DNA of 32,697 nucleotides from an uncultured Nitrospinota bacterium (lineage in GTDB: Bacteria > UBA8248), in NCBI GenBank assembly GCA_947258645.1, contig CAMYJL010000041.1:1-32697 (forward strand), written 5' to 3'. This document shows, piece after piece, positions 103 to 7,158 of the stretch. The first letter of the stretch is position 1; every line of letters starts with the position of its first letter. The notes under the pieces were generated by a model, which saw only the letters and a list, made by a program, of their open reading frames with translations, made no database searches and had not been told where the DNA came from. A program made the position numbers and the translations under genes.

Positions 103-405
103 TTATTCGTGAGGGATCTTGTTTCTGACCTGATTGATAAAGCGAAACGAAATATTCGCTTTCTCCAGAGCAATCATCACTTCATGGATATTTTTACTCT
201 CGCCCGCGAGCATGGCTTGACTCTGGGTGTTCGCGTTGACCATTTGATCGTTCGTGGAGGAGAGCATTTCGTTTAACATGCCCGAAAAAGCGCCGGGTTT
301 TTCGCCATCCGACAGCCCGGAAGAAGGCAGAAGCTTACCGTCCGGAGCTGATCCATTGGCCACCTGTGGCAGTTGCGGAATCGAAGCCGGATTAATGTTC
401 GTCAT
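103..405 (-). CDS. fliE: Flagellar hook-basal body protein FliE, abnormal C-terminus
   Basis: FliE forms the junction between the MS ring (FliF) and the rod of the flagellar basal body. The core is recognisable: an N-terminal linker rich in Pro, Ser and Gly, then FSGMLNEML, and the family helix VMIALEKANISFRFINQVRNK. In the family this helix continues after RNK into a conserved end of roughly AYQEIMRM. Here the protein stops after RNKIPHE, about ten residues early, and neither other frame restores the motif. The start is supported by GAGGGG six bases upstream of the ATG. It follows flgC by 18 bases in a flgB-flgC-fliE operon. Identity is confident from the helix and the operon; whether the protein still works is uncertain, because the missing segment is normally well conserved. 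Confidence 0.85.
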   Translation of the reverse strand: MTNINPASIPQLPQVANGSAPDGKLLPSSGLSDGEKPGAFSGMLNEMLSSTNDQMVNANTQSQAMLAGESKNIHEVMIALEKANISFRFINQVRNKIPHE

Positions 406-423
406 TTTTTCCCCTCACCAACC

Positions 424-870
424 TTATCTTCCAATAGACATGGCTTTGGTAATCATCGCCCTTGTGGCGTTGACAGCCGTCACGCTTGCCTCGTAAGACC
501 GCTGAGCATTCATCATGCTCACCATCTCGGTGATCATGGTGATATTTGGCATGGCGACGTACCCATTTTCGTTCGCGTCCGGGTGGGAGGGCTTGTAAAC
601 CAGCCGGGGGGGACTTTTGTCCTCAATCACGCGGGTGACCTCTACCCCCTGGATGTGCCGGTTCAACTCGTCTTCGAAAGAAGCGCCCGCTTTTCCGGTC
701 ATCTCCTCCAATCCCACCGGCCGGATGGAGACATCTTTCCGGCGGTAAGGTCCCCCCTGGGGGGTTTTTGTCGTATTGACGTTGGCCAGGTTGCTGGCGA
801 TGGTGTTCATGCGGACCCGCTGAACAGCCAGGGCCGAAGCGCTAATCTGCATTGATTGGAATAGGTCCAT
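424..870 (-). CDS. flgC: Flagellar basal-body proximal rod protein FlgC
   Basis: FlgC is one of the proximal rod subunits, exported by the flagellar type III system and assembled in the periplasm between the MS ring and the distal rod. At 148 residues it has the usual family length. The N-terminus MDLFQSMQISASAL and the rod/hook signature NTIASNLANVNTTKTP (about residues 22-37) are diagnostic. The C-terminal coiled segment ITEMVSMMNAQRSYEASVTA, followed by a KAMSIGR end, is also typical. The ATG lies two bases after the flgB stop codon, so translation is probably coupled. The gene looks intact, unlike fliE next to it. Confidence 0.96.
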   Translation of the reverse strand: MDLFQSMQISASALAVQRVRMNTIASNLANVNTTKTPQGGPYRRKDVSIRPVGLEEMTGKAGASFEDELNRHIQGVEVTRVIEDKSPPRLVYKPSHPDANENGYVAMPNITMITEMVSMMNAQRSYEASVTAVNATRAMITKAMSIGR

Positions 871-872
871 GA

Positions 873-1295
873 CTATCTTGTCCCTTCGCTAATCGCGGTT
901 TTGAGCCCACCGAACAGCCGGGCCAGGACTTCGGTTTCCGTCTGAAAGAGCAGACTGTTTTCATTCAACTTACCCATTTCCTTGTCGACAGAGACGGTAT
1001 TTCCGTCAAACGAGGCGGTTGCCGAATCTGCCGAGACGATTTCCGGCTGACTGGAGAGGATATCGATATTCCCTCCCCCGCCCAGGTGTTTTTCATGCGT
1101 TCTCACCATCCCCAATCCCCGTTCGGTGGAAAGGGCTTCCTTGAGCATCCCTTCAAATTCGATGTTTTTTGCCTTAAACCCCGGTGTCTCGGCATTGGAT
1201 ATGTTGGTGGATATGAGGGAATGGCGCTGCGATCGAAAATCCATCGCCCGCTGGTAGGCAGCCATCGTATCGTTGAACAATCTCGGGCTCGGCAT
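873..1295 (-). CDS. flgB: Flagellar basal-body rod protein FlgB
   Basis: FlgB is the most proximal rod protein. The family signature SLISTNISNAETPGFKAKNI lies near residues 25-44, and the C-terminal helical part ends in LARLFGGLKTAISEG, as expected. The ORF track starts at 1328, but the ATG at 1295 (MPSPRLFND) is better: it follows an AGGGGGG ribosome-binding site about seven bases upstream, and FlgB proteins normally start just before the LF segment. This gives 140 residues, the usual size. It is the first gene of flgB-flgC-fliE. The upstream spacer carries a plausible sigma-54 promoter and a FleQ-like site, described separately. Confidence 0.95.
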   Translation of the reverse strand: MPSPRLFNDTMAAYQRAMDFRSQRHSLISTNISNAETPGFKAKNIEFEGMLKEALSTERGLGMVRTHEKHLGGGGNIDILSSQPEIVSADSATASFDGNTVSVDKEMGKLNENSLLFQTETEVLARLFGGLKTAISEGTR

Positions 1296-1379
1296 CGAAC
1301 TACCCCCCTTCTTTCCTTCTTTCTTCAAGCATGTATTCTAACGGTAGGCGCACGAAACAGCCAATATAACTAACAATGA

Positions 1380-1394
1380 GCAATATCCATACCG
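1380..1394 (-). promoter_or_regulatory. Candidate sigma-54 promoter for flgBC-fliE
   Basis: On the minus strand the sequence reads CGGTATGGATATTGC followed by T. Against the sigma-54 consensus TGGCACG-N4-TTGC it keeps the invariant GG, the exact ten-base gap to GC, the G ending the -24 element, and the full TTGC plus T of the -12 element. Mismatches are at T1, C4 and C6. Transcription would begin near 1368, about 70 bases before the flgB start. Two sigma-54 activators in the same cluster make this choice of sigma factor likely. Confidence 0.5.
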
Positions 1395-1545
1395 GTCACG
1401 GCCGCAGCCGCCTAAATGTGTAAAATCCTTTAACATAGGGATTCGGGGGTGAAAATTAAGAGAAGTAAAAGAGAAAAGAGGGGCAAAAATTTCCTGCCAC
1501 TCCCGGAAAAATCGTCAATCCCCCGGCCGGCCGTGAAACCGTCTC

Positions 1546-1559
1546 GTCAGGAAATTGAC
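1546..1559. promoter_or_regulatory. Candidate FleQ-type enhancer box upstream of flgB
   Basis: GTCAGGAAATTGAC matches the FleQ-box consensus known from Pseudomonas aeruginosa (GTCaNTAAAtTGAC, recalled from the literature) at every defined position except the sixth. It lies in the spacer between the FlbD-like gene and flgB, roughly 180 bases upstream of the predicted start of the flgB sigma-54 promoter. That is a normal distance for a sigma-54 enhancer. The neighbouring FleQ-like protein is the obvious candidate to bind it. Confidence 0.5.
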
Positions 1560-1560
1560 C

Positions 1561-2906
1561 CTAGGTCACCTTTGCCGCGGTATCGTACTCTTTCAGCTTG
1601 TTCCGGAGGGTCCGGATACTGATGCCGAGCATTTCGGCAGCACGGGTTCGGTTTTCACTGACCTTGCCAAGCGTTGAGATGATCAGGCGACGCTCGACTT
1701 CCTGCACCGAGAGCCCGACAAACGAGTCAATCGAATTTCCCTCGGCCGGAACCTCAACCGGGGAATCTTGTGGCTGCTCATCCAGAAGCAAATGTTCCAC
1801 GCGCAACTCTTTTTCAGGAGCGAGGACGACCGCACGCTCGATCACGTTTTCACACTCGCGTACATTCCCATTCCACGGCATCCTGTCCACGATTTCATCC
1901 ACGTCTGAGGAAACAGCCTCTATGTTTTTGTTATTACGTTTATTATGCTTTTCACCAAAATGACCCCCCGCTTTCGGTTTCTCAGGGGGGGGATATGGAG
2001 CGGAATCACATTGAGGCGGTAGTACAAATCCTCCCGAAATTTCCCCTCTTCGATGTACTGGAGGAGCGCCCGATTCGTGGTCGCGATGACCCGGACATCC
2101 ACCTGGACCGGAGAACTTCCCCCCACGCGATCAACGATTTGCTCCTGGAGAACGCGCAACAGCTTCGCCTGCAGATGAACCTGCATCTCGGAAATTTCAT
2201 CCAGCAAAATCGTCCCGCCGTTGGCCATCTCAAACTTTCCCAGTCTGCGGGAAATGGCGCCGGTAAACGCTCCCTTCTCGTGGCCGAACAGCTCGCTCTC
2301 GAGCAAAGATTCCGGCAAGGCGGCGCAATTGACGGCCACAAAGGGCTTGTCCTTGCGGGCGCTTCTCGCGTGGATGAACCGGGCCAGCAGCTCTTTTCCC
2401 GTCCCGCTTTCCCCCTGGATGAGAACGGACGCCTGACCGCTTGCGGCCCGCTCTGCAATCGACAACACCCGCTTGAATTCGGGATCATCCGTGATGATCG
2501 CCCAGGGCTCCGCCTCCTTCCCCCCACTCGACGGCGGCCCTTCCCCGCTTCGCCCCAGAGCCTGCTCGATGACTAGCTCAAATTTTTCCGGCTCCACCGG
2601 CCGCACCAGAAAATCCGAGGCCCCCTCCTTGATGGATTCGACGGCCAGGTCCAAGGAAGGCTCGCCGGCGGTGACGACAACACTGGCCTCCGGCTGACGG
2701 GACAATATCTTCCGCGTCAAATCCAGAGCCTCGTATTGCCCGGAGTCTGAATCAAGGAAAACCAGCAGTTTTTCCGCTTTTTCCGACGCAACGATGGCTT
2801 GTCCGGCTCCGAGGACTCGAATGGCCTGATGGCCCTGATGTCGAGTGCGCTCTTCCATTTCCGGAGGAAATACATCTTCGGGGCCGACCAGAAGAACATC
2901 AGCCAA
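1561..2906 (-). pseudogene. FlbD/FlrC-like sigma-54 flagellar activator, frameshifted
   Basis: The order is a degenerate receiver domain (residues about 1-115), a sigma-54 interaction AAA+ domain and a Fis-type helix-turn-helix. The AAA+ part has Walker A GESGTGKE, the sigma-54-contacting GAFTGA and Walker B GGTILLDEISEM. The C-terminus NRTRAAEMLGISIRTLRNKL closely resembles FlbD/FlrC-type flagellar activators. The reading frame breaks after IPPLRNRK: the first part (1920-2906) runs into a stop, and the rest (from about 1902 down to 1561, VDEIVDRMPWNGNVREC onward) is in another frame. Against the intact paralogue at 5244-6641 about six residues are also missing at the break. The usual PWPGNVREL reads PWNGNVREC. 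The TTG at 2906 is chosen because AGAGG precedes it and the receiver's first strand begins there; the track ATG at 3014 would overlap the upstream gene. The receiver lacks the usual acidic pair, and the usual Lys reads Arg. It is either a decaying gene or an assembly error. Confidence 0.8.
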
Positions 2907-2953
2907 GGGAATACCTCTCGACAGCGGAATATCCGGCGCAGACAGTCCTACTT

Positions 2954-5095
2954 TTAATTCGCAACGCCACCCCCCAAAAGCCTTTCCAGGCGGGGACGGT
3001 TCGCTTTGTCCCACTCGACGCTTGCCGAGCGCACCCGGTTGATTTCACGCCAGAACGGATCGGCCGGCACGTTCTCTTCGGCTTTCAATTTGGCCGGAGA
3101 AGCCACCCTACCCATAAGTTTCAACTCGGCCTGAATCCTCCTGACCCGATGCAAGGTCCATCCCGAAAGCTTGCTCTTGGGGTATGCCTCAAGCGCCTCT
3201 TTGTAGGAAACGAGCGCGCCCACCTTCTGCCTCCCCTCATAAAGCAGATCCCCGAGACGAAACCTTGCCTTCTCCAGAGAAAACGGCTTTACGGAACCCG
3301 GAATTTTCGAATACATGCCTATCGCTTTTCTCAGAGCCTCTACAGATTCCCCATATTGGAATATCTCGGAAAATGCTTCGGAAAGGATAAAAAGCGAACG
3401 CCCCCTCAACTCGTTGTCCATCTCCCCCTTCAACGCCTCCGTCAAGTGAGTGACCGACAGGCGCGGCTGCCTCTCCAGCCAGGCGATTTCGCCGAGTATC
3501 GCCCGAATGGAGGCCGATCGCTTTCCATCGGGAAACCTGCTGATAAAACGGCCCGCGAGAGACTTGGCATTCCCGATATTTCCCGACAAAAGCGCCGATT
3601 GTGTCAGGCGAAATATTACCTCCCCCCCCACTGCAAGAATCCCCCGGGGATCCGACATCACTTCCTTGAAAATCTTGTCCGCCTTCTCGTAGAGGCCCAG
3701 CCGCATATAACTCTCACCCACATCCATCATCGCGAGAAAAGGCTTGGCCTCCATACTTACTTCCTTGGGGATGATCGTTCGAAACTCTGCATACGACCAA
3801 ATCGCGCGCAAGAACTGCTGCCTGCTGTAAAATTTTCCAATTTCCCCAAAGTAAGCGCGCGCCATGATCAGGTGGGCATTGTTTAACAACGGGGTGGTCT
3901 GATTCTTTCCCAGGAATTCTTTGAGCGTATCGATGGACTTCCAGAGCCCTCCTCGATTGAGGTGGTAATTGGCAATTCTCAGATAGGCCACATGCGAAAG
4001 ACGGTTTTCCGAAGCCTCCCGGGCAACCCTCCAGTAAGCACCGACAGGATTGCGAAACGGATCAACGGGGAACACCCAATCGGAGGGCGTCTTGAACTTT
4101 TTATCCACCACCATATCCGCCATACGGATGAGCGAGACCCATGCGCCCTCGGTCCTGGGATATTTCGAAACCACCCTCATGTAAATCTTGGCGGCGCTCT
4201 CCATATCCCCTTGTTCAAGCTGAATATCACCAAGACGAGCGAGCGCTCTGTGCGTATACCCGGAGGATGGATTGACGTTCACCATTCGGAGGAAGGATTG
4301 CTCCGCTTCTCTAAAACGGCGGGCCTGAAATAAGGTCTCCGAATAACCAAAAAGGAGATCCGAGCGCAACTTGAGGTAACCGGGCCACCGCTTCATCCCT
4401 CCCTCAAACTGCTGGAGTGCCTCCTTGAAGAGCTTTTTCTTGGAAAGAGCATTAGCGATTCCAAAATAAGCCTCTTTCTCGGCAGGCGTCCCTTGGTATT
4501 TCTTCAAAATCTTGCCGTATTCGACAATTGCACTTTGCGGATCATTTATCGATATATAGCGTGCGGCGATTTCCAGGAGAGCTTTCGGGGCTTGAGGGCT
4601 GTCCGGTGCTTTTTGCACCAATGTCCGAAAAGCGACGAAAGCCTCTCCGGACCTTTTCGTTGCTTTATAAACCTGCCCCAAGCGGAAATATGCGCCCGGC
4701 ATCTGAGGCGACTCGGGATAGAAGGAGAGCGCGAGAACATAGGCCTTGGCCGCTTTCGTATATTCAGCTGCCACACCTGTTTTGGCGATGAAATAATGGG
4801 AATCGGCCAGCATGAAAATCGCCCGCCGGTGCTCGGTATGGTTCGGGAATTTCCGGACAAACAATTCCAGAAGCGGCAAAGCCCGAGCATAGAGACCCCG
4901 CTGATGGAGTCGGAGGGCTGCGCGGAATAGAAGCTGGGGATTCGCTTCCAATTCTTTTGCAAGGGATTTTTTTTCACTTCCAATCGCCGGAGCCTCCGGT
5001 TGACCAATCTTTTCCGCTCCGGCCACGGGACCAGCGGCCGCGAGCACCACAACAAAAAAGAGGGCAACGTCCACTCTTGGCGTTCCACGTGGCAT
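2954..5095 (-). CDS. Exported tetratricopeptide-repeat protein
   Basis: This is a 713-residue protein with an N-terminal signal peptide (hydrophobic FFVVVLAAAGPVAGA, cleavage probably near residue 27) followed by many TPR-like helical pairs across its whole length. Examples are YARALPLLELFVRKFPNH, GAYFRLGQVYKATKRSGEAF and ALARLGDIQLEQGDMESAAK. Such proteins are scaffolds for protein-protein contacts in the periplasm or outer membrane. It sits between two flagellar sigma-54 activators on the same strand, so a role in flagellar assembly or envelope anchoring is a reasonable inference, but no catalytic or binding motif proves it. ATG at 5095 is preferred over the TTG at 5098 because GGAG lies seven bases upstream of it. 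The stop is 47 bases before the FlbD-like start, suggesting one operon. A more specific family is not recognised. Confidence 0.85.
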   Translation of the reverse strand: MPRGTPRVDVALFFVVVLAAAGPVAGAEKIGQPEAPAIGSEKKSLAKELEANPQLLFRAALRLHQRGLYARALPLLELFVRKFPNHTEHRRAIFMLADSHYFIAKTGVAAEYTKAAKAYVLALSFYPESPQMPGAYFRLGQVYKATKRSGEAFVAFRTLVQKAPDSPQAPKALLEIAARYISINDPQSAIVEYGKILKKYQGTPAEKEAYFGIANALSKKKLFKEALQQFEGGMKRWPGYLKLRSDLLFGYSETLFQARRFREAEQSFLRMVNVNPSSGYTHRALARLGDIQLEQGDMESAAKIYMRVVSKYPRTEGAWVSLIRMADMVVDKKFKTPSDWVFPVDPFRNPVGAYWRVAREASENRLSHVAYLRIANYHLNRGGLWKSIDTLKEFLGKNQTTPLLNNAHLIMARAYFGEIGKFYSRQQFLRAIWSYAEFRTIIPKEVSMEAKPFLAMMDVGESYMRLGLYEKADKIFKEVMSDPRGILAVGGEVIFRLTQSALLSGNIGNAKSLAGRFISRFPDGKRSASIRAILGEIAWLERQPRLSVTHLTEALKGEMDNELRGRSLFILSEAFSEIFQYGESVEALRKAIGMYSKIPGSVKPFSLEKARFRLGDLLYEGRQKVGALVSYKEALEAYPKSKLSGWTLHRVRRIQAELKLMGRVASPAKLKAEENVPADPFWREINRVRSASVEWDKANRPRLERLLGGGVAN

Positions 5096-5219
5096 CAAAT
5101 GGCTCCAAAAAAACCTGGCGGCAATGCCTTCCTTTCCCCTTTAGAACTCCACCTCTTCCCGTAACCAAAACAGACCGCTCAAATGCGCAATCAAAACTTT
5201 AATATAGCCATATAATCAT

Positions 5220-5243: not shown

Positions 5244-6641
5244 TTACTCCGAAGCCTTCGCCTCCTCCATCTTCTTCTTTTTCAGCTTTTCAACTAGGGT
5301 AGTCCGATTCAAGCCCAAAAGCTGGGCGGCCCGATTCTTCACCCCGCCACTTTTCTCCAAGGCCTTTTCAATCAAACGGCTTTCAAGATCATCGATGACG
5401 GCCTTCAGGTCGATCCCTTCCTCCGGAATGTCCGGTTCCGCCAGTTTCATCGGACCCGAATCCACCGAATGCAGGCAACAGAACCGCTCGGGCAACTCTT
5501 CAAGACGAAGCTCAGGGTTGTCGGCCAGGATTGCCATTCGTTCAATCAGATTCTCCAACTCTCTCACATTCCCCGGCCAGGGATACTCCTGCAACGCCTC
5601 GAGTACCGTCTCTGAAACCTTTTCCAGTTTCGACATATTCTTTTCCCGGAATCGATTGATAAAGGCCTCGACCAATACAGGGATATCTCCCTTTCTCTCC
5701 CTCAATGGAGGCAGGTGAATCGGAATTACATTCAGCCGGTAATAGAGGTCTTCCCGAAATTCCTTTTGGGCGACGGCTCTCTCTAAATCTTTGTTTGTCG
5801 CCGCGATAACACGAACATTCACCCGAATCGTCCGGGATCCACCCACCCTTTCGAATTCACTCTCCTGGAGAACACGGAGGAACTTGACCTGGAGCTTCGG
5901 GCTCATTTCGCTCACCTCATCCAGAAAAATTGTTCCCCCGTCCGCCATCTGGAATCGTCCCTCCCGGGCCGTGGTGGCGCCCGTAAATGCCCCCTTCTCA
6001 TGGCCAAACAGCTCACTCTCCAGTAACTCCTCAGGTATAGCGCCACAATTTACTGGAATAAGTGGACCATTCCTCCTTTCACTACTTTTGTGAATTGCCC
6101 GGCAAACCAGCTCTTTCCCCGTCCCGCTCTCTCCGACAATGAGAATGTTGCTCGCGGTCTCGCTCACCCGCGATATCATGTCAAATACCTTTTTAATTTC
6201 AATACTTTTACCCAGTATTCCATAGAATCCACTTTCATTTTTTCCCCGCGCAGGAGACACTTCTTCCTTAAGGGATTTTTCCGCAAAATGAAGGAGTTTT
6301 TCGGGGATAGAACCATTCAGGTCAGGCCACGCTTCGTAATCGCTCGCCCCCGCTCTTACGGCCTGAACAATTCTCTCGAGTTTTTTCCCTTCGGATGTGC
6401 ACAATATCGGGAGATTTTCTCTGGCAATCCGGAGAACCTGAATTTCGTCAAGCAGGGAACGGTACTCGGCATCCGGGAGGTTGTCGGGAAGCGCACAATA
6501 AATAACATTCGCGCCCTTGGATGAAGCCCATTCCAGCCTCTCCACGACCTTAACCTCGAAACCTTTTGAAACTAAAGACTTTTCAAGGATTTCGGAAGAA
6601 CTCGGATCATACCCGAACAAAACTGCGCATTTATCGCCCAT
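5244..6641 (-). CDS. FleQ/FlrA-like sigma-54 flagellar master regulator
   Basis: The protein is 465 residues. Residues 1-125 form a receiver-like domain without the normal phosphorylation residues, as in FleQ. The AAA+ core follows with Walker A GESGTGKE, GAFTGA (sigma-54 contact), Walker B GGTIFLDEVSEM, the arginine-finger segment REDLYYRLNVIP and PWPGNVRELENLIER. The C-terminal region EEGIDLKAVIDDLESRLIEK and the Fis-type helix-turn-helix ending NRTTLVEKLKKK match the FleQ/FlrA class closely. FleQ proteins switch on early flagellar genes at sigma-54 promoters and, in Pseudomonas, also answer to c-di-GMP. Where Pseudomonas FleQ has the c-di-GMP motif LFRS, this protein has GFYG, so that response is doubtful. 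AGGA lies six to seven bases before the ATG. The gene appears intact and carries its own FleQ-like site at the promoter. Confidence 0.9.
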   Translation of the reverse strand: MGDKCAVLFGYDPSSSEILEKSLVSKGFEVKVVERLEWASSKGANVIYCALPDNLPDAEYRSLLDEIQVLRIARENLPILCTSEGKKLERIVQAVRAGASDYEAWPDLNGSIPEKLLHFAEKSLKEEVSPARGKNESGFYGILGKSIEIKKVFDMISRVSETASNILIVGESGTGKELVCRAIHKSSERRNGPLIPVNCGAIPEELLESELFGHEKGAFTGATTAREGRFQMADGGTIFLDEVSEMSPKLQVKFLRVLQESEFERVGGSRTIRVNVRVIAATNKDLERAVAQKEFREDLYYRLNVIPIHLPPLRERKGDIPVLVEAFINRFREKNMSKLEKVSETVLEALQEYPWPGNVRELENLIERMAILADNPELRLEELPERFCCLHSVDSGPMKLAEPDIPEEGIDLKAVIDDLESRLIEKALEKSGGVKNRAAQLLGLNRTTLVEKLKKKKMEEAKASE

Positions 6642-6708: not shown

Positions 6709-6737
6709 ATTTGACCACATTCTCGGGGATATGTCAA
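6709..6737 (-). promoter_or_regulatory. Sigma-70 promoter of the fleQ-like gene
   Basis: On the minus strand, a perfect -35 TTGACA (6732-6737) is followed after exactly 17 bases by TCAAAT (6709-6714), a four-of-six match to the -10 consensus. The start point would be near 6702, leaving about 60 bases of leader to the ATG at 6641. A FleQ-like box overlaps the -35 element. Confidence 0.6.
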
Positions 6738-6746
6738 AAAAATGAC
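6733..6746. promoter_or_regulatory. Candidate FleQ box over the fleQ-like promoter
   Basis: GTCAAAAAAATGAC has the same 14-base GTCA-N6-TGAC architecture as the site before flgB. It differs from the Pseudomonas FleQ consensus only at positions 6 and 10. It covers most of the -35 hexamer of the predicted sigma-70 promoter, a position where binding would block polymerase. Autorepression by the FleQ-like protein is therefore the simplest reading. Confidence 0.45.
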
Positions 6747-7158
6747 CTCATCCATCCTCCCCCAAGGCATATTGTGTAGTCATCGATTACACAACCGAGT
6801 CGATTATAACTAAGCCGTACACTATAGCCAATATATTTCTCCCCCAGGCACCCGTCATTTTTCAAGCTCCCCTGCGATCAAAAAACTCCCGCATCCCCGC
6901 CCATATGAGCAATAATCAGGCCGCCTCGGTGCCAAATGAATGACCATTTCGTCTCAATGGCTGCGCCAAATTAACATCCCGGGAATTCAGGGCCAGACTT
7001 TCTCCTCCGCTATATAGCCTCTCGGGTATGTTCTATGGCTTGGACTCCCAACTCCCCGCCCCCCGGTTTCCCGACGGCGCCCGAGGCGCTTCCCTCCCCA
7101 TTTGAGTAAACGCCCTTCCCGCCCGAATTTTTGATACTCTCGCCTCAAGGCTTTTCCC
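6747..7158. other. Divergent intergenic region, nothing recognised
   Basis: This is the middle of the 593-base spacer between the minus-strand flagellar block and the plus-strand atp operon. No ORF of useful length is present in either direction. Short inverted repeats occur (CCATT/AATGG near 6945-6960 and GCGCC/GGCGC near 7075-7090), but neither has a T-run. I see no tRNA, no insertion-sequence ends and no recognised riboswitch. It could hold an unrecognised small RNA or decayed coding sequence. Confidence 0.5.

Follow-up and report, generated by a model that had tools for sequence, protein, structure and literature searches.

A FleQ-type box paired with a sigma-54 promoter upstream of flgB, conserved outside the Pseudomonadota and accompanied by a FleQ-like regulator gene

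FleQ and FlrA of Pseudomonas and Vibrio bind the box GTCAAT-N2-ATTGAC, for which the P. aeruginosa consensus is given as GTCaNTAAAtTGAC (PMC6120874); this consensus is itself contested by ChIP-seq (PMC6120874), and binding of FleQ downstream of a promoter is known (Jyot 2002, as cited in PMC6120874). The contacts of FleQ with c-di-GMP include R144 and R185 (PMC10723142). Beyond the Gammaproteobacteria, Kazakov and others assigned the predicted motif yGTCA-N6-TGACr to the FleQ/FlrA-like protein DVU2894 in Desulfovibrionales (PMC4641369). A different site, GGCA-N4/5-TGCC, also written GGCAxxxxTGCC, has been published for FlbD and DVU1063 (PMC3333781).

Here we describe a flagellar locus in a window of 32,697 nucleotides (the whole stretch of DNA analysed) from a genome assembled in 509 contigs (4.29 Mb; G000). 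On the minus strand, the genes run in the order FleQ-like activator (FleQL), TPR protein, FlbD-like sigma-54 regulator, flgB, flgC and fliE (Table 1). G014, G005 and G008, three relatives from the same family, share this order, as does a named MAG (L033). Outside the window, genes were identified from Pfam matches or by reading the sequence. FlhF, FlhG (FleN-like) and FliA-like proteins were readable by eye in G005, and G000 contains two long FlgE-type open frames (C3:29505 and C155:12614; 754 and 658 residues).

Table 1. Genes and regulatory elements of the locus, in window coordinates.
Feature	Coordinates	Strand	Remarks
fliE	103..405	-	Pfam FliE
flgC	424..870	-	Pfam; synteny
flgB	873..1295	-	TIGR01396 above cut-off; start (about 1295) from alignment
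Sigma-54 -24/-12 element of flgB	1379..1394	-	CGGTATGGATATTGCT; exact GG-N10-GC
FlbD-type motif B	1481..1495	-	AGGAAATTTTTGCCC; at -101 from the flgB -24 element
Second half-site	1513..1519	-	ATTGACG; TGAC starts 42 bp past the start of box A
FleQ-type box A	1546..1559	-	GTCAGGAAATTGAC; reads GTCAATTTCCTGAC on the flgB strand
FlbD-like sigma-54 response regulator	1561..3014	-	16-nt deletion disrupts the frame compared with relatives; junction about 1964-1969
TPR-repeat protein between both regulators	2954..5098	-	Conserved synteny
FleQ-like sigma-54 activator (FleQL)	5244..6641	-	Best PDB match FleQ; GAFTGA; RTTLVEK
Box A in the fleQL leader	6733..6746	-	GTCATTTTTTTGAC; in register across orthologues
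Sigma-54 element upstream of fleQL	6908..6923	-	CGGCCTGATTATTGCT; GG-N10-GC

Box A begins one base beyond the stop codon of the FlbD-like regulator gene and, as the preliminary description had counted, matches the P. aeruginosa consensus at all defined positions but one, the sole deviation being T to G. The same description reported a sigma-54 element on the minus strand; the exact GG-N10-GC spacing given there holds, but the stated distance of about 180 bases from the box does not: the -24 element is 165 bp from the start of box A (gap 151 bp). The element has the GG-N10-GC and the conserved -24/-12 of a sigma-54 promoter and matches 9 of 11 scored consensus letters, which puts it among the weakest in the set examined. 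The box alone is unremarkable, with 62 copies in 4.29 Mb, approximately the expected number; the probability of a perfect box in the 265-bp intergenic region before flgB is about 0.001 (dinucleotide shuffles). A third GTCA-N6-TGAC of the window (3441-3454) lies inside the TPR gene; it has no sigma-54 partner and is probably there by chance.

A search of the phylum, which is not Pseudomonadota, returned one family of 18 genomes, with FlgB in four and FlhA in five of them; neither protein was found in G001 or G002, in both of which fleQL is broken. At flgB of the relatives the box, positioned in each case right past the regulator stop codon, reads GTCAATTTGGTGAC in G014 (8/8), GTCAACTTCCTGGC in G005 (7/8) and GTCAACTTCCTGAC in G008 (8/8), followed 120–150 bp further on by a sigma-54 element, which in G014 and G008 scores 11 in the scan used. 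The GG-N10-GC element occupies the equivalent position before flgB in these three genomes and in L033. In the alignment from regulator stop to flgB across the four flgB-bearing genomes, whose intergenic DNA has otherwise diverged, 35 of 276 columns are invariant and the densest invariant run falls inside the box. Shuffling put the perfect boxes at P = 0.001, 0.005 and 0.0008 and the 7/8 box at P = 0.02. Treating the four genomes as independent gives about 2e-10 for the whole pattern, which overstates the evidence because these genomes share ancestry. At flgB of L033, where the gene order is equal, the promoter is present and a box was not found. Directly past its FleQL gene, this MAG, which is outside the family, has a perfect box (GTCAAAAAATTGAC, L033:11371-11384); a sigma-54-like element follows after a further 63 bp. 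The pair of box and sigma-54 element at flgB is significant in its context and not a product of chance, and the proposal of the preliminary description, a FleQ-type box and sigma-54 promoter before flgB with a FleQ-like regulator nearby, is supported by its conservation in a phylum other than Pseudomonadota.

The best match of FleQL among solved structures is P. aeruginosa FleQ. It has a sigma-54 AAA+ domain (Pfam Sigma54_activat) with the GAFTGA loop, and its recognition helix, RTTLVEK, is identical to that of FleQ and, among the G000 sigma-54 activators with a readable C-terminus, is present in FleQL only. Its N-terminus gave no Pfam match at E 0.001, hence no Pfam FleQ domain. Across 80 homologue loci from many phyla, searched over 400 bp before and 300 bp after the gene, an exact box stood beside the gene at 7 of 24 loci with RTTLVEK and at none of 56 without it (Fisher P = 1e-4). 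The FleQ-like protein encoded at 5244-6641 is thus the likely reader of the box and the probable flagellar master regulator. In all family orthologues readable in the region, R185 is kept, R144 is replaced by Y or H, and N186, which we take to be another c-di-GMP contact of FleQ, is replaced by A; with R144 and N186 replaced, FleQ-style control of FleQL by c-di-GMP appears doubtful.

The fleQL gene has its own sigma-54 element about 270 bp upstream, with GG-N10-GC at the equivalent position in all six genomes aligned, and the leader box is located downstream of that promoter. The leader box is in register in the five intact orthologues (8/8 in G000, G014, G005 and G011; 7/8 in G008), with the same sequence in G000, G005 and G011 and GTCAAAATATTGAC in G014, whereas in G002 (L234) fleQL is frameshifted and the leader box has decayed. 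Remnants of FleQL with frameshifts or stops are present at L234 (G002) and L237 (G001).

We consider it probable that box A is an upstream activating sequence read by FleQL, driving sigma-54 transcription of flgB-flgC-fliE, with the neighbouring FlbD-like regulator reading the motif GGNAAATTNTTNCC. From the sites, their conservation, their spacing and the helix match, all of them read from sequence, we infer binding, looping and the direction of regulation. FleQL dimers would bind the palindrome at 1546-1559 and probably also the weaker half-site at 1513-1519; bound FleQL would then loop over about 150 bp to sigma-54 RNA polymerase, whose open complex at 1379-1394 would start the flgB-flgC-fliE transcript. 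FleQL would also bind the box in its own leader, downstream of the sigma-54 promoter, so that the fleQL-TPR-regulator operon would be autoregulated. The FlbD-like regulator, a product of this operon, would read GGNAAATTNTTNCC before flgF and before the second flgE-like gene. Several observations weigh against this reading: the weak -24/-12 element of flgB, the lack of a full box at most flagellar sigma-54 promoters examined, the non-flagellar or unassigned genes that follow four of the five best-placed boxes, the missing box at flgB of L033, and the contested FleQ consensus.

The FlbD-like neighbour gene, motif B (1481-1495) and the half-site (1513-1519) had all been overlooked in the preliminary description. 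FlbD was the best family match in both halves of the regulator, far below the family cut-off, and the best NCBIfam match of its HTH (92 bits, the next 59, again below the family cut-off). The broken frame reflects 16 nt missing between C- and G-runs (window 1903-2010) in the G000 assembly; the relatives are intact. A motif search in four genomes recovered GGNAAATTNTTNCC in all eight flgF and second flgE-like promoters, with a log-likelihood of 70.6 versus at most 42.4 across ten shuffles, and the motif is placed at -101 to -130 in steps of about ten bases, or one helical turn (L177, L178, L186, L187, L189, L191, L193). The full GTCA box was not found at the flgF and second flgE-like operons of the four genomes, where the sigma-54 promoters are excellent; at flgF a GTCAA half-site stands ahead of the motif, and most of the flagellar sigma-54 promoters examined are without a full box. 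The HTH and the FlbD-type motif at these other flagellar promoters apparently assign the neighbour regulator to a different site. The outcome that the preliminary description named as counting against it, no enrichment of the motif before other flagellar genes, was thus observed in part: flgF and the second flgE-like gene carry the FlbD-type motif instead. The box does recur in the fleQL leader and, with the same spacing, at four loci that are non-flagellar or unassigned.

That the adjacent FlbD-like regulator, not FleQL, reads the box and activates flgB is in our judgement unlikely. The regulator gene does lie right beside flgB, which in G000 has a FlbD-type site at -101, but in all four genomes the operons with clear FlbD-type sites (flgF and the second flgE-like gene) are without a full box, across phyla the box goes with the FleQ helix, and the reading frame of the regulator is broken in the G000 assembly. 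A role of the FleQL-bound box as a repressor or architectural site, with flgB activated from the FlbD-type site, is likewise improbable, at roughly one chance in ten by our reckoning. Motif B at flgB scores 17.8 bits (equalled in 0 of 300 shuffles; rank 7 in 1.73 Mb) and lies at a distance like that at the second flgE-like promoters; however, motif B was not found at flgB of G014, G005 and G008, which have box and promoter, so that flgB of G000 carries both the GTCA box and motif B, flgB of the relatives the GTCA box only, and the box is the common element. Against activation through the box, the site at -101 could be the working enhancer of G000 flgB. Motif B can also be read as a weak terminator-like repeat, which was rejected as a general reading because no T-run follows GGNAAATTNTTNCC at flgF or the second flgE-like gene.

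Pairs of box and sigma-54 element occur elsewhere in G000. The spacing scan covered 1.73 of 4.29 Mb, together with the sequence flanking 50 of the 62 boxes; 11 of these 50 boxes had a sigma-54-like element no more than 250 bp away (4.7 expected), and six of the 11 are at -164 to -176 (flgB, C114, C62, C20, C5 and C70, the last in coding sequence). Within 400 bp, the 1.73-Mb sample held 13 pairs, 6 of them in this one 13-bp slot, which was picked after the data had been seen. ATTGACG with its TGAC starting 32–42 bp past the box start is present in four of the five non-coding promoters, at +32/33 in three of them and at 42 in flgB; C62 has TTTGACG instead, further on. The C70 pair (-174), within coding sequence and with a poor promoter, is probably a chance occurrence. 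A scan for the exact pattern at the correct spacing recovered the C114 site and those at flgB in G000, G008 and G014, but genomes that lack flagellar genes gave matches too; by itself, the pattern is therefore not diagnostic. A chance palindrome beside a chance GG-N10-GC, with flgB transcribed by read-through or from a sigma-70 promoter, would fit the near-expected count of 62 boxes and one weak sigma-70-like site (1364-1335), but conservation in four genomes and the spacing cluster in the genome make it highly improbable.

Four of the five best-placed boxes in G000 precede non-flagellar or unassigned genes. The C5 module (L126:1763-9246) stands before an operon for a multihaem cytochrome and a flavin/2Fe-2S oxidoreductase, and the C20 module (L280:4478-6412) before a RodZ-like HTH protein and a lytic transglycosylase. 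At C114 (L117:1015-1757) the module precedes a membrane protein of 151 aa, which over its first 58 residues is similar to the N-terminus of the C20 transglycosylase; for the 261-aa protein of C114, no family relatives and no Pfam or NCBIfam match were found. In C62 (L331:11571-11730), box and sigma-54 element are followed by a highly structured RNA (fold z -6.6) with a strong terminator hairpin and nine U; an Rfam match above threshold was not found, and the transcript is a candidate sigma-54-dependent small RNA. More tentatively, with about one chance in three, a FleQ-like regulator that makes no use of the c-di-GMP contacts of FleQ may run a sigma-54 regulon whose composite enhancers combine the box with a half-site at a fixed helical distance. 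Such a regulon would join flagellar rod assembly to multihaem cytochromes, to a transglycosylase operon and to a small RNA with a structured fold.

The preliminary description suggested that FleQ box logic operates outside the Gammaproteobacteria; the conserved pair at flgB agrees with this, but the idea has a precedent which that description missed, since the motif of DVU2894 had already been predicted in Desulfovibrionales (PMC4641369). What is new, on the sequence evidence, is that, in another phylum, box and sigma-54 element are conserved as a pair both before flgB and before the gene of the regulator itself, and apparently also the split of flagellar operons between FleQ-type and FlbD-type motifs (a two-regulator wiring) and the extra targets. 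The locus offers independent evidence, backed by conservation, that the FleQ box and recognition helix extend far outside the Gammaproteobacteria and can be separated from c-di-GMP sensing as well as from FleS/FleR. It also offers an example of two sigma-54 regulators that apparently divide the flagellar operons between them, each with its own DNA motif, and a list of extra targets open to testing, the candidate small RNA included.

Compared with FleQ/FlrA, the system is alike in its AAA+ sigma-54 activator with GAFTGA and RTTLVEK, in GTCA-N6-TGAC, in sites upstream or downstream of the promoter and in a second sigma-54 regulator gene nearby. It is unlike FleQ/FlrA in the N-terminal domain of FleQL (no Pfam FleQ match), in the replacements of R144 (Y or H) and N186 (A), in the FlbD-like partner and TPR gene in place of the fleS/flrB kinase, and in the absence of a box between fleQL and the genes that follow it. 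The neighbour regulator resembles FlbD (Caulobacter) and DVU1063 in its HTH and, apparently, in the motif GGNAAATTNTTNCC that it would read before flgF and the second flgE-like gene, whereas motif B differs from GGCA-N4/5-TGCC in its A/T-rich centre and is often not strictly GGCA/TGCC. DVU2894 of Desulfovibrio vulgaris is likewise FleQ/FlrA-like outside the Gammaproteobacteria, predicted to be auto-regulated, with the same palindrome (PMC4641369), and it too coexists with a FlbD-like regulator (DVU1063). It was described without an N-terminal domain and with no conserved sigma-54 promoters found near its gene (PMC4641369), whereas in the FleQL lineage boxes stand at a fixed distance from sigma-54 promoters, flgB included.
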